From Neobacillus massiliamazoniensis (GTDB lineage: Bacteria > Bacillota > Bacilli > Bacillales > Cytobacillaceae): a stretch of DNA of 64,000 bases. The DNA lies in assembly GCF_001048695.1 (NCBI RefSeq), contig NZ_CVRB01000004.1, positions 806,001 through 870,000 on the forward strand. Reading direction: 5' to 3'. The translations under genes were made by a program, and so were the position numbers. The notes beneath the pieces were generated by a model, which saw nothing but the letters and a program-made list of their open reading frames with translations, had not been told where the DNA came from and did not search any database. This document shows, piece after piece, positions 23,041 to 62,058 of the stretch; positions within the stretch are counted from its first letter, which is position 1; every line of letters starts with the position of its first letter.

Positions 23041-23187
23041 ATGAATCTCCCTTTCTTTTTTCTACCATTATTAACAAATTATCTGAAATTTAAAATAAAA
23101 CCATTTTCTAATTTAAGGTTATTTTAAGATTCGGCTTGTAAGCTCCTATTCATACAGAATGGATGGATAATGAAAGGAGAAAATAAA

Positions 23188-23550
23188 TTGGATAAAAAAC
23201 AACGAATCTCCTGGGGAGTCAGCTTTGGCAGTCTCGCCTTAGTTGCCGGGATGGTATCCTATCTTGGGTTATCAAATGGAGATAAAACCAACAATCAATC
23301 GACAGGTAATCAAAATAATAATGTTTTAAATCAGCAGTCACAAGATAACGGTTTTTCCCAAGGCCAGATTGATCAAGGTCAAAGCTCTAATGGAGACCAA
23401 TCATCACAATTAAACGGCGGGTCCTCCAACAATAATTTCGACAACAATACTCAATTCTTTGGCAATAGCAGCGGTCAAAATCAATTCTCAAATAACGGCA
23501 GTGGGTCCGGCCATCATCATGGATTTGATACAACTACAGGTGGAACCTGA
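23188..23550 (+). CDS. Small anchored Asn/Gln/Ser-rich protein with FMN-attachment-like C terminus
   Basis: 120 aa. A short basic N terminus (MDKKQR) and one TM segment (about 8-29) are followed by about 75 residues of Asn, Gln, Ser and Gly with almost no hydrophobics, that is a flexible extracytoplasmic tether. It ends HHHGFDTTTGGT. The last seven residues fit Dxx(S/T)G(A)T, the threonine flavinylation motif recognised by ApbE, with Gly in place of Ala; the acceptor would be the final Thr120. TTG 23188 is chosen because AAAGGAG lies 7 nt upstream and falls inside the frame from ATG 23170. Its stop overlaps the apbE ATG (TGATG), so the pair is coupled. The role as flavin carrier is inference. 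Confidence 0.75.
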   Translation: MDKKQRISWGVSFGSLALVAGMVSYLGLSNGDKTNNQSTGNQNNNVLNQQSQDNGFSQGQIDQGQSSNGDQSSQLNGGSSNNNFDNNTQFFGNSSGQNQFSNNGSGSGHHHGFDTTTGGT

Positions 23551-24425
23551 TGTTTAACTATCCATTTCACTCAATGAGCACCATGGTTCGGATTTCTATT
23601 GATCATGAACTATATGCCAATGACCTAATGTCGGTATTTAAGCTGTTCCAATTAATCGAAAATACGTGCAGCCGCTTCCGTAAAGATAGTGAACTATCCG
23701 TGTTGAATAAGCAAATCGGGGAAGAACAACCGGTTTCTAAGGAATTGTTTTCAATATTAAAAAAGGCTTTACAGTTCTATCACGAAACAGATGGGCTTTT
23801 TAATCCAGGAATTTTAAAAGCGATTGAAACGAATGGTTATTCAAAATCGATTGAACATATTAGAGAACACAGGATTAATATTTCTGTTCTTGCTCCTACC
23901 GCAGTGAAGGTACAACCATTAGTTTTACATGAAAACAAGCAATCTATCACTCTATTTACCAAAATTGACTTAGGCGGAATTGCCAAAGGCTGGGTGATTG
24001 ACCGTGCTGCTGAGCTGTTAGAAAAGAATGGCTATGGCTTTATTAATGTTGGTGGAGATATCCGTATTTTCGGGACATTACCGCACCCTTTAAATATCGG
24101 GATTGAAGACCCATTCGACCAAACAAAGATGATTTCTTCTATTCAAGCAGAAAACGGTGCAGTGGCGACTTCTACCACAATGAAAAGAAGATGGCTTGTA
24201 AAGGGGGAATGGAAGCATCATTTGATTGACCCGCGAACCGGCTTACCTTCTGAAAGCCCAATTGTCTCTGCGACGGTTACGGCTCCCACTGCCTTAGAAG
24301 CTGATGTTTTGGCAAAAACGATTCTTTTATCCGGTAAAGAGCATGGTCTATCAATCGCTGCCAAAAAAGGGTGCCAAGTTGTTTTAATCGATCAGGATGG
24401 AGAAGTATTGAAAGGAGGCATTTAA
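23550..24425 (+). CDS. apbE: ApbE-family FAD:protein FMN transferase
   Basis: 291 aa. ApbE enzymes split FAD and attach FMN to Thr in target proteins using Mg2+. Motifs: CSRFRKDSELSVLN (about 38-51), KIDLGGIAKGWVIDRAAE (about 138), NVGGDIRIFG (about 165), HHLIDPRTGLPS (about 223) and EADVLAKTILLSG (about 247). Most ApbEs are lipoproteins or have a signal peptide; this one starts directly with MFNYPFHSMSTMVRIS and has none, which is odd for a partner of extracytoplasmic proteins. Start overlaps the preceding stop; AAAGGAGG at its end serves the next gene. Confidence 0.92.
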   Translation: MFNYPFHSMSTMVRISIDHELYANDLMSVFKLFQLIENTCSRFRKDSELSVLNKQIGEEQPVSKELFSILKKALQFYHETDGLFNPGILKAIETNGYSKSIEHIREHRINISVLAPTAVKVQPLVLHENKQSITLFTKIDLGGIAKGWVIDRAAELLEKNGYGFINVGGDIRIFGTLPHPLNIGIEDPFDQTKMISSIQAENGAVATSTTMKRRWLVKGEWKHHLIDPRTGLPSESPIVSATVTAPTALEADVLAKTILLSGKEHGLSIAAKKGCQVVLIDQDGEVLKGGI

Positions 24426-24956
24426 ATGGAACTATTCGAATGGTATATCATCCGTGCCACTGGTACTGTTGCCTATGTTTTATTGTACCTTGCTGTTTTG
24501 ACAGGTCTTTTTTCACAGGTTCAAAAAAGACGAAAGAAAAAAGTAACCTCGACTTTGTATTTACACGAGTCCCTTTCCAATTGGGCTCTAATTCTAACCT
24601 GTGGTCATGTTCTATTTTTACTGATTGATTCCTATATTTCATTCCAATGGTTTGAGGTCCTCATCCCATTTAAGAGCCACTATAAAATGCTACCAATGGC
24701 ACTAGGAAGTCTAGCATTTTATTTTTTAATAATGACCGTCATTACTTCAAAAGCACGAAAAAAAATCGGCTATCAAAAATGGCGCAGGCTGCATGGTCTG
24801 AACCCGATTCTGTATATTTTAGTGACCATCCACGGTTTATTCATTGGTTCTGACTTCCAGGGCATCGTAATTGCTGCAGCAAATATTGTACCGTTATTAA
24901 TTTTGGGTGTACTGCTGCTGTTTGACCGAAAAAAAACACAAGCAATACAACACTAG
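24426..24956 (+). CDS. Ferric reductase-like b-heme membrane protein
   Basis: 176 aa with about five TM helices (about 10-30, 50-70, 88-108, 125-142, 148-168). Candidate heme ligands come in spaced pairs: His in LYLHESLSNW and CGHVLFL, then His in WRRLHGLNPI and VTIHGLF, as expected for a two-heme ferric_reduct/MsrQ-type four-helix core. No FAD/NAD-binding module follows, so electrons would pass to a separate carrier, plausibly the flavinylated protein encoded two genes upstream. Its ATG follows the apbE stop directly (TAAATG). Confidence 0.85.
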   Translation: MELFEWYIIRATGTVAYVLLYLAVLTGLFSQVQKRRKKKVTSTLYLHESLSNWALILTCGHVLFLLIDSYISFQWFEVLIPFKSHYKMLPMALGSLAFYFLIMTVITSKARKKIGYQKWRRLHGLNPILYILVTIHGLFIGSDFQGIVIAAANIVPLLILGVLLLFDRKKTQAIQH

Positions 24957-29790: not shown

Positions 29791-31236
29791 CTATTTTTTT
29801 GCTGGCGGCACGGTTGGTGTCTGTGCAGGGAAATAGTCGTTAACCGCATGATCTTTTTTCTTTTCATTTACTTTTTCATCGGCAACGGCTTTTTTCACTT
29901 GGTCAATTTGTTGATTTAGCTCTTCCAAATTTACGCCTTTTTTAACAAGTTCTTCAGTAGCAAGGCGAATGGCATTGTTAGACTGTTCCATTGACATCCT
30001 TAAAGAATCCATTGACCCTTGCGGATTATGGAAACCAGCTGAGTTTTCCGCAGCAACGATATCCCAGTACCATTGTCCTTGTCGTATAAACTCTTGTGCC
30101 TGTTTAATTTTATCCTGGCTGACACCGGAAGTAATCATCTTGTTGACATAGTAGTGAGATGAAACCGAAATATTCTCAGCATCCAGCAATGCTTTTACAT
30201 TGGCATCTTGGATTTCAGTGACTGTATTCTTTAATTTGTCTAAATTACGGTCGGAATGACATTGACCGCAAGATGTTTGCATGGTTTTAAGTGGTGATGT
30301 CCACCAATGTGAGGTAATTTTCTTTTTACCATCCACACGTTCATATGGCATATGGCAATCGGCACAAGAAACATTTGCTTTGCCGTGCGGGCCTGACTGA
30401 TTGGTTTCAAAATCCGGATGCTGTGCTTTTAACAACGGAGTTCCGGAGATATTGCTAATCCAGTCTTTTTCAAAACCGTTTTGCTTCGCAATCGTGTCAT
30501 AGTATTCATACATTTGCTCTGGTTTGAAGCCTTTGTCCCAAGGGAAAGTCACCTTACTATTTTTTGCTGCAAAATAATATTCAACATGGCACTGCCCGCA
30601 AACATAGCTGCGCATTTCATTTTTTGTCGGATTAGAGACATCGACTCCCTTTGCTTTTAATGCTTCAAAAAAGCTAGGTCGTGTAACTCGTAAATCCATT
30701 GTTTTCGGGTCATGGCAATCGGAGCATCCAATTGGGGAATGTCCCATCGCAACACCCTTTGGCCATATATCTTTGTTAAAATTAGCACTATAGTAACCGT
30801 CGCCCATTTCTTTAATCATTTGTGGCACGGCTGTTGATTTACATGTATAACAGGAGCCAACTGATTTATCCGTAATCCGCTTAATACTGCGAATATCCTC
30901 TAATGCATAAATATGGCCGCGGTCTTCATTATATTCAGTTGCAAATCCATATCCGTTAAAGAGAATCGGCAATAGAGGCTCTTTATCAGGGTCAAACTTG
31001 CTGCGCTTGATCGAACCTCCGTATTTTGTGTCCTCCATTTTTAAGTTTTTTTGATAACTATCATATTGAAGTGGAAATAGATTTTTAAACGCTTCATTGC
31101 TGATTTCATTTTCAGAGAGGCCTGTCGTCTTCTTTCCTGCTGCTGATGCCGTCTTATCACTTGTATTACTGCATCCAGTGATGATAAGAACAAATGCCAG
31201 CAAAAGAAAGTATGCCCCGTATCGGAACCTTCCCAT
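29791..31236 (-). CDS. nrfA: Ammonia-forming cytochrome c nitrite reductase
   Basis: Pentaheme NrfA of 481 aa reducing nitrite to ammonium with six electrons, outside the membrane. The active-site heme motif is CYTCK (about 128-132), with the diagnostic Lys ligand; four more motifs are CSDCH, CGQCH, CADCH and CGQCH. The signal sequence ends in a lipobox (LIITGC), so it is probably a lipoprotein as usual in Gram-positives. A charged C-terminal tail (KKDHAVNDYFPAQ) follows the last helix. Downstream of nrfH by 2 bp, one operon. Confidence 0.96.
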   Translation of the reverse strand: MGRFRYGAYFLLLAFVLIITGCSNTSDKTASAAGKKTTGLSENEISNEAFKNLFPLQYDSYQKNLKMEDTKYGGSIKRSKFDPDKEPLLPILFNGYGFATEYNEDRGHIYALEDIRSIKRITDKSVGSCYTCKSTAVPQMIKEMGDGYYSANFNKDIWPKGVAMGHSPIGCSDCHDPKTMDLRVTRPSFFEALKAKGVDVSNPTKNEMRSYVCGQCHVEYYFAAKNSKVTFPWDKGFKPEQMYEYYDTIAKQNGFEKDWISNISGTPLLKAQHPDFETNQSGPHGKANVSCADCHMPYERVDGKKKITSHWWTSPLKTMQTSCGQCHSDRNLDKLKNTVTEIQDANVKALLDAENISVSSHYYVNKMITSGVSQDKIKQAQEFIRQGQWYWDIVAAENSAGFHNPQGSMDSLRMSMEQSNNAIRLATEELVKKGVNLEELNQQIDQVKKAVADEKVNEKKKDHAVNDYFPAQTPTVPPAKK

Positions 31237-61743: not shown

Positions 61744-62058
61744 AAAAATCCCTCCAAAACAGTCAAAATGACTGTTATCCATTCACTTTAAGCCTATTTT
61801 AAGATACTACTCCAATGGTTAAGAAGTCAATATCACTTGATACTGTCTACCCTTAATTCATACCTTATTATATATTAAAATCTCATTTATTTCATTTTCC
61901 CTCTATCGGATAAATTATAAAGCAGGGATTATCTTCTAGTTAGACCTGCAAAAAGTCATTGACACTCTCCTTTAGATTCCATACACTAATGTTTTGAAGG
62001 ACCTTAATCCTACAAGAGATTTAATATAGATTCTTTTTTAAAAGGGGAGGGAACAAAT
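61744..62058. promoter_or_regulatory. Divergent menF/menA promoter region
   Basis: For menA: TTGACA (61960-61965), 17-bp spacer, TACACT (61983-61988). For menF: TTGACT with TATCTT 18 bp away on the minus strand. AAAAGGGGAGGG near 62040 is the menA ribosome binding site. No further structure seen. Confidence 0.6.

Follow-up and report, generated by a model that had tools for sequence, protein, structure and literature searches.

A minimal ApbE substrate of seven residues with the motif D-x-x-[ST]-G-A-[ST] has been described, in which the last residue is the target (PMC12052999). According to the same paper a seven-residue tag at the C-terminus is typically fully flavinylated; the motif Asp can be replaced by Ala with minor effect, G-to-A and A-to-V exchanges each cost about half of the labelling, and a Thr-to-Ser exchange costs 10–55% (PMC12052999). 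Catalytic roles have been assigned to Ser, His and Arg of ApbE (PMC12052999). The enzyme is described as metal dependent (PMC12052999, PMC4767422, PMC5655446), and a Thr serves as metal-1 ligand in E. coli (T284) and T. pallidum (Thr288) (PMC4767422, PMC5655446). The closest described gene clusters, the MsrQ-like clusters of Meheust et al. 2021 (PMC8238504), are defined by a PF01794 gene in a flavinylation cluster and typically include a gene for an FMN-binding-domain protein. By its own account the survey retained a cluster only where a target gene had a predicted signal peptide or lipidation site, and in 4% of the surveyed genomes (670) an ApbE was left for which no substrate was known (PMC8238504). 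Flavinylation on a C-terminal extension has been shown by mutagenesis for FMN_red proteins (mSystems 2024, PMC11334425).

The operon investigated here lies on the forward strand of a 64,000-nucleotide stretch of the Neobacillus massiliamazoniensis genome (the window). The original prediction had described three genes with overlapping or abutting stop and start codons, and the ORF coordinates together with Pfam (ApbE, Ferric_reduct) confirmed this layout. The first gene (23188–23550, +) most probably starts at TTG 23188, which is preceded by a ribosome-binding site AAAGGAG read in the sequence (23173–23179, +), and encodes 120 amino acids; an alternative in-frame ATG at 23170 would give 126. 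Its product is a small signal-anchor protein with a Lys-rich N-terminus, one transmembrane segment (ISWGVSFGSLALVAGMVSYLGL; 23206–23271, +; read in the translation and conserved among family copies) and an Asn/Gln/Ser/Gly-rich tail, which ends ...GHHHGFDTTTGGT. The terminal D-T-T-T-G-G-T (23527–23547, +) contains the predicted FMN acceptor, the last Thr (ACC, 23545–23547), an assignment based on conservation and on the motif rule of PMC12052999. The stop codon TGA of the small gene overlaps the ATG of apbE (23550) by one base. ApbE (23550–24425, +; 291 aa) matches PF02424 with an E-value of 1.9e-55 and 188.7 bits against a curated cut-off of 25.6, has the PDB relatives 1vrm, 6nxi and 7esa, and shows no evident signal peptide. 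By sequence it is a member of PF02424, a membership that does not carry the family's activity over to it. Its stop (24425) abuts the ATG of the third gene (24426–24956, +), which encodes a ferric-reductase-domain membrane protein of 176 amino acids (PF01794, 1.6e-10) without a flavin or NAD domain.

For the small protein no Pfam family was found above cut-off, FMN_bind (PF04205) included, and the same was seen for a relative that was checked. The genome contains a single FMN_bind match. Its neighbours are an NQR2-like protein and a further ApbE, so that the apbE of the operon has no FMN_bind partner beside it. We therefore rejected another FMN_bind protein as substrate of the operon's ApbE, the only one in the genome having its own. 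This second flavinylation cluster (locus L001, 607–2857) consists of the FMN_bind protein with NVSGATYST near its end, a signal-less ApbE with the usual Thr and the NQR2-like membrane protein.

With the MsrQ-like systems the operon shares a PF01794 membrane cytochrome next to apbE, and for those systems electron transfer between heme and a covalent flavin outside has been proposed (PMC8238504). In contrast to them, no FMN-binding-domain protein is found alongside, ApbE is signal-less and the acceptor is placed at the C-terminal end of a disordered tail; the membrane protein is modelled with about five helices and has no NAD domain, whereas theirs is described as six-TM and often carries one (PMC8238504). 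Held against the 2021 definition, the operon has the PF01794 gene beside apbE; of the signal peptide or lipidation site that the definition asks for in an ApbE, FMN_bind, DUF2271 or DUF3570 gene, our hydropathy rule found none evident in its ApbE. Since the survey required such a site, clusters like this one should fall outside it, judged from its stated criteria. FMN_red proteins also carry the flavinylation motif on an unstructured C-terminal extension, but there the site is near a flavin-binding domain (PMC11334425), which is missing here. The Flavin-tag (Tong et al. 2021, as told in PMC12052999) likewise shows that seven terminal residues suffice for ApbE; it is engineered, whereas the present arrangement is natural. 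A search of the open-access literature, with subscription papers and preprints outside its scope, returned no C-terminally flavinylated tether, no Bacillus ferric-reductase/ApbE pair and no account of the operon. The PplA/FmnB system of Listeria is said to use a flavinylated electron carrier on the surface side of a Gram-positive cell, like the tether proposed here. Unlike the latter, PplA is reportedly a lipoprotein with FMN-binding domains, served by a secreted ApbE and by Ndh2/EetAB instead of a ferric-reductase domain.

The AlphaFold2 model of the ferric-reductase protein (pLDDT 89.5) shows five long helices. Its four His residues H47, H61, H123 and H136 (codons 24564–24566, 24606–24608, 24792–24794 and 24831–24833, +) do not vary across alignments of 17 and of 25 proteins. 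The four-His membrane protein and the DTTTGGT end of the small protein of the original prediction were both borne out. Foldseek returned no match to the model at an E-value of 0.001 or better (best hit 8qt6, SpNOX, 0.026). A second structural comparison ranked SpNOX, STEAP4, cytochrome b561 and NOX5 first with Z-scores of 12–14 (8qta 13.8, 6hcy 13.1, 4o7g 13.1), values that are moderate for a helical bundle; this ranking of a predicted model agrees with the Pfam assignment and with the His pairs. When searching by sequence for solved relatives we found none that was credible, with one match at E 4.1. By profile and by its two His pairs the protein belongs to the ferric reductase domain superfamily, and heme binding is predicted. 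It resembles NOX, STEAP, SpNOX and cytochrome b561 in the two His pairs and may do so in the fold of the membrane part, but has no dehydrogenase domain and is paired with a partner that is predicted to be flavinylated.

Within the genus, relatives of the ferric-reductase protein were detected in 26 of 60 genomes (here and below the tallies count the window's own genome in). Besides the window's own there are 15 orthologues with 58–71% identity, and 14 of these 16 loci carry the small protein and apbE upstream. The original prediction had proposed looking for a C-terminal DxxTG(A/G)T in homologues beside apbE, and the tail reads FDTTTGGT in all 14 loci, which were collected independently of the motif. 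At one of the two remaining loci the small gene and apbE were lost by deletion, the start of the small gene being left and the reductase kept. At the other neither lies beside the reductase, and the same genome has a small protein with apbE elsewhere. A homology search with the small protein in which the tail end was ignored yielded 35 copies, with 27 of 61 genomes matched (one copy had already been read in the orthologue set and five further ones are places of the motif scan described below). DTTTGGT is the end of 31 copies, one of them with a stop inside the linker, and one more ends DSTTGGT, which differs at a free position of D-x-x-T-G-G-T; the small gene is truncated in the other three. 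All 32 end-bearing copies thus have the D-x-x-[ST]-...-[ST] spacing of the ApbE substrate motif. Two of the truncated genes lie at decayed modules with broken reductase genes; one is the locus that we had set aside for its broken reductase, and the other shows reductase fragments only.

We also scanned for the motif itself, the independent tests being the 14 orthologue loci and the homology-found copies. D-T-T-T-G-[GA]-T followed by a stop had 31 occurrences, spread over 24 of the 61 genomes of the genus and always as GG, and the reversed-pattern control gave 0. Among the genome_contigs of 84,980 species [FY]DTTTGGT-stop occurred in 32 stretches, with about 2 expected by chance according to our own arithmetic, and 32 of 32 were the small protein. 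In nineteen of these stretches both apbE and ferric reductase are present on the strand of the small gene; three have ferric reductase only, two have only apbE in view, and one is cut by the stretch end. The remaining seven are orphans, in which at least 3.2 kb of downstream sequence shows neither gene on that strand. By record name the stretches are from Neobacillus or Bacillus sp., plus one Bacillota MAG and one Paenibacillus sp.

Outside the genus we used a profile of the ferric-reductase protein built from a 17-protein alignment (A2). It matched 45 of 397 genomes of the order and 112 of 348 Bacilli genomes, 96 of these at an E-value of 1e-10 or better and 16 weakly. The plan of a flavin-tipped tether therefore seems common in bacilli. 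Of the "unusually reduced design" in the original prediction the reduction holds, there being no FMN-binding domain; rare it is not. The class scan gave 124 places by our own count, from which 30 loci and 40 regions chosen for family spread were examined and 54 were left out, including 19 partial matches with E above 1e-10. Six repeats, one broken locus and one weak match without apbE were dropped from the locus set. Of the 134 reductase loci taken together from the genus, order and class scans, 124 have an apbE on the same strand and ten do not, like two weak matches (the dropped one and one from the phylum scan).

In the 124 apbE-linked loci the upstream membrane ORF ends with [ST]xx[ST], its second Ser/Thr being among the last three residues, in 101 cases, compared with 18 of 248 control C-termini from the same loci (ApbE 6/124, ferric reductase 12/124). 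The ORF pick behind this count ignored the tails, but the hydropathy limit had been lowered after inspecting loci and the rule was framed after many tails had been read; the loci are also mutually related, and a Fisher value for this comparison is no probability. Counted by family, at least one pass is found in 28 of 33 families as opposed to 7 for the controls. The blind pick left 23 loci failing. Tails chosen by eye were then put in at 18 loci, and for this count three instead of two residues were allowed after the acceptor; with this curation 117 loci pass, five fail and two have no candidate. In 94 of the 117 passing tails the acceptor is the last residue, and the residue six before it is D in 60 and E in 13. 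Chance as the origin of the motif is excluded by the reversed-pattern control, the genome_contigs count, the control C-termini and the homology-found copies. On these comparisons the DTTTGGT C-terminus is no accident.

Canonical ends of the type [ST]G[AGSV][ST] occur in eight families (f1, f28, f39, f47, f50, f53, f67, f86), with Gly-Ala in f50, f67 and f86, and several distant clades end TGAS or TGGS. Most relatives carry R-R, R-A, R-P or S-H at the GA position before the acceptor, and TRRS-like ends form the largest group (53 of 122, our own sorting). On a quick ApbE tree of 72 rows, in which 20 of 69 inner branches are weak, the distribution of canonical and other ends needs 7 changes; the sister of the window's clade ends YDTTTRGT. 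In the phylum scan 9 of 299 genomes matched, 5 of them outside the class. There apbE is present at five of six places, the sixth being a weak match, and the upstream proteins end TRSRRS, TKTRPS, DVVSRPS, QTRAS and, at locus L218, TTTGASGKP. These phylum loci were collected after the rule had been written; all five show [ST]xx[ST] at or near the end, four within the last three residues. Possible FMN_bind proteins at three loci (L204, L208 and L209) were searched with Pfam, which found no such domain.

The linked ApbEs were compared in an alignment of 122 of the 124 proteins, leaving out two truncated ones. All 122 retain the catalytic Ser and Arg and the second His. At the position of the metal-1 ligand Thr all 122 carry Lys (Lys256 in the window, codon 24315–24317, +), and Thr stands in the genome's other ApbE and, by reading, in the PDB relatives 1vrm, 6nxi and 7esa. 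The metal-site Asp is Asp in 33, the window's included, and Glu in 89. The linked ApbEs thus lack the combination of Asp and Thr ligands at metal site 1. When scanning 101 Bacilli genomes with 30 ApbE loci, we found Lys in 16 of 16 loci with a ferric-reductase gene and Thr in 14 of 14 without; 11 of the Lys-type loci were already among the 122, and the Thr-type loci include the genome's second ApbE. Of 52 ApbE genes in a hand comparison of the Bacilli scans, 29 have a same-strand reductase match no more than about 2.5 kb away. A hydropathy rule, used in place of SignalP, flagged a signal peptide in 2 of 124 linked ApbEs, both over-long ORFs that read into the upstream gene. Because the genome's other ApbE is also signal-less, loading in the cytosol would not be special to the linked class. 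The original prediction was silent on both the signal-less appearance and the altered metal site.

We consider it probable that the operon encodes a tail-flavinylated membrane electron relay, with FMN on the C-terminal Ser/Thr of the tether and electrons delivered by the hemes. ApbE would act in the cytosol, where FAD is, and attach FMN to the terminal Thr side chain while the tail has yet to cross the membrane; being C-terminal, this site would be the last part of the tail to leave the cytosol. The flavin-bearing tail would then be exported, we assume through Sec, and by the positive-inside rule end up outside. There the tethered FMN could take electrons from the outer heme, itself supplied from menaquinol or a cytosolic flavin as candidate donors inside, and hand them to an outside acceptor, which might be ferric iron, a quinone or a further protein of the wall. 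Many Bacilli, and some members of the phylum beyond them, may use this plan too, there with a Lys-type ApbE and different [ST]xx[ST] C-termini.

The last Thr as predicted ApbE target is well supported by comparison. The genus copies with their DTTTGGT and DSTTGGT ends, the Ser/Thr spacing and the TGAS and TGGS ends of some distant relatives sustain this part of the original prediction; ends of the TRRS type, on the other hand, are no known ApbE targets. The expectation that homologues retain D-T-G-T holds for every end-bearing copy in the genus and fails for distant relatives. The window and its genus also depart from the Gly-Ala of the published motif, having GG before the acceptor. Further points that speak against FMN transfer are the altered metal site of the linked ApbEs, the tails that fail the rule and the reductase loci lacking apbE. 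For canonical tails the predicted acceptor assignment is strong, for TRRS tails fair. The arrangement is real, conserved and found widely, a predicted variant of electron transfer by way of ApbE. It is an even question for us whether it amounts to a separate flavinylation class, in which a signal-less Lys-type ApbE would work in the cytosol, charge the terminal Ser/Thr of disordered anchored tails with FMN and accept both TGGT/TGAS and TRRS among D-x-x-[ST]-x-x-[ST] ends. The tails would be exported flavin-on, and the class would make up over half of the ApbE genes of the Bacilli sample.

If the relay is real, a redox carrier can consist of a hydrophobic anchor, a flexible linker and a flavin on its final residue, without any cofactor-binding fold, showing how little protein suffices for electron transport outside the cell. 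Certain "orphan" ApbEs would gain a substrate, the recognition rule would extend from [ST]GA[ST] to C-terminal [ST]xx[ST], and flavin loading ahead of export would be suggested. The role of the ApbE metal site would become testable through natural variants, and engineering would gain a short natural flavin tag.

The conserved C-terminus could instead be a docking signal for ApbE or for the ferric reductase, with ApbE only holding or hydrolysing FAD and supplying loose FMN. Such a role would suit the altered metal site, the wide differences across families in the two residues before the last, and the description of the T. pallidum ApbE as an FAD pyrophosphatase (PMC4767422). However, Ser/Thr is kept at positions −3 and 0 while the rest changes, and the canonical TGAS/TGGS recurs in separate clades, both as a modification site predicts, and we regard docking as unlikely.

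Somewhat less likely again is a changed reaction, in which the Lys-type ApbE would put another group, for example AMP, or flavin by altered chemistry, on TRRS-type tails, with FMN confined to Neobacillus and the TGAS clades. Lys is indeed present at the metal site of every linked ApbE and TRRS lies outside the published motif (PMC12052999), but Lys is also found in clades with canonical tails and the catalytic Ser, Arg and His are kept.

Flavinylation of the tail, as we prefer it, includes its export. In 99 of the 101 small proteins passing the blind pick the N-side of the transmembrane segment is more positive than the C-side, which would place the tail outside; together with a cytosolic ApbE this would imply that FMN is loaded before export. 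The apparent absence of a signal peptide in ApbE and of a dehydrogenase domain in the 176-aa reductase would equally agree with a tail that stays cytosolic and whose tethered FMN feeds the inner heme in place of a NOX-type FAD/NAD(P)H domain. With the charge bias putting the N-terminus inside and the tail being hydrophilic and of low complexity, this ranks just below the changed reaction and is improbable.

The GG codons of the motif overlap the apbE ribosome-binding site, and in the window GGTGGA is found 6–11 bases ahead of the ATG of apbE. A set of 38 distinct copies shows up to four codons at a given motif position, an F or Y in front of the motif, and free variation of the linker and of third codon positions; the constancy of the motif itself in this set is by selection, since the copies were fetched by it. 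That the motif is a by-product of this site (GGTGG) at the small-gene end is very improbable, since despite the overlap and the last Thr codon being ACC in 37 of 38 copies it accounts for neither DTTT nor the varied Gly codons, and it is in the main refuted by orphan copies that keep all seven residues without apbE (six found by homology, seven by motif). The seven orphans found by motif, with neither gene beside them on the same strand, are possibly flavinylated in trans.

Upstream of the operon we noticed a direct repeat TTAAG-N6-TTAAG (23113–23128, +), which is also present upstream of 29 of 35 family copies read, including 6 of 7 orphans, and whose form suggests a box of the response-regulator type. 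A second copy with two mismatches is located at 61788–61803 of the window. The window further contains a putative gene for an NrfA-like multiheme cytochrome c nitrite reductase (29791–31236, −), recognized by eye from its CxxCH/CxxCK motifs.

Several related loci showed additional genes. By eye, response-regulator- and kinase-like ORFs lie 3' of the reductase on the same strand at two loci, and at another Pfam identified a histidine kinase downstream on the opposite strand. A Cu_amine_oxidN1 (PF07833) protein is encoded directly upstream of a TRRS/TRRT-type small protein at two loci, with look-alikes seen by eye at the same place in others. In family f15 the upstream protein of one locus (L072, the same as L020) is a FlgD_ig protein with a weak DUF2271 match ending SSQGS, and three look-alikes found by eye end SSQGS or TQGS. 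At L218 (2103–2862) two adjacent proteins precede apbE, each with TGAS near its C-terminus, and a two-flavin relay is possible there.
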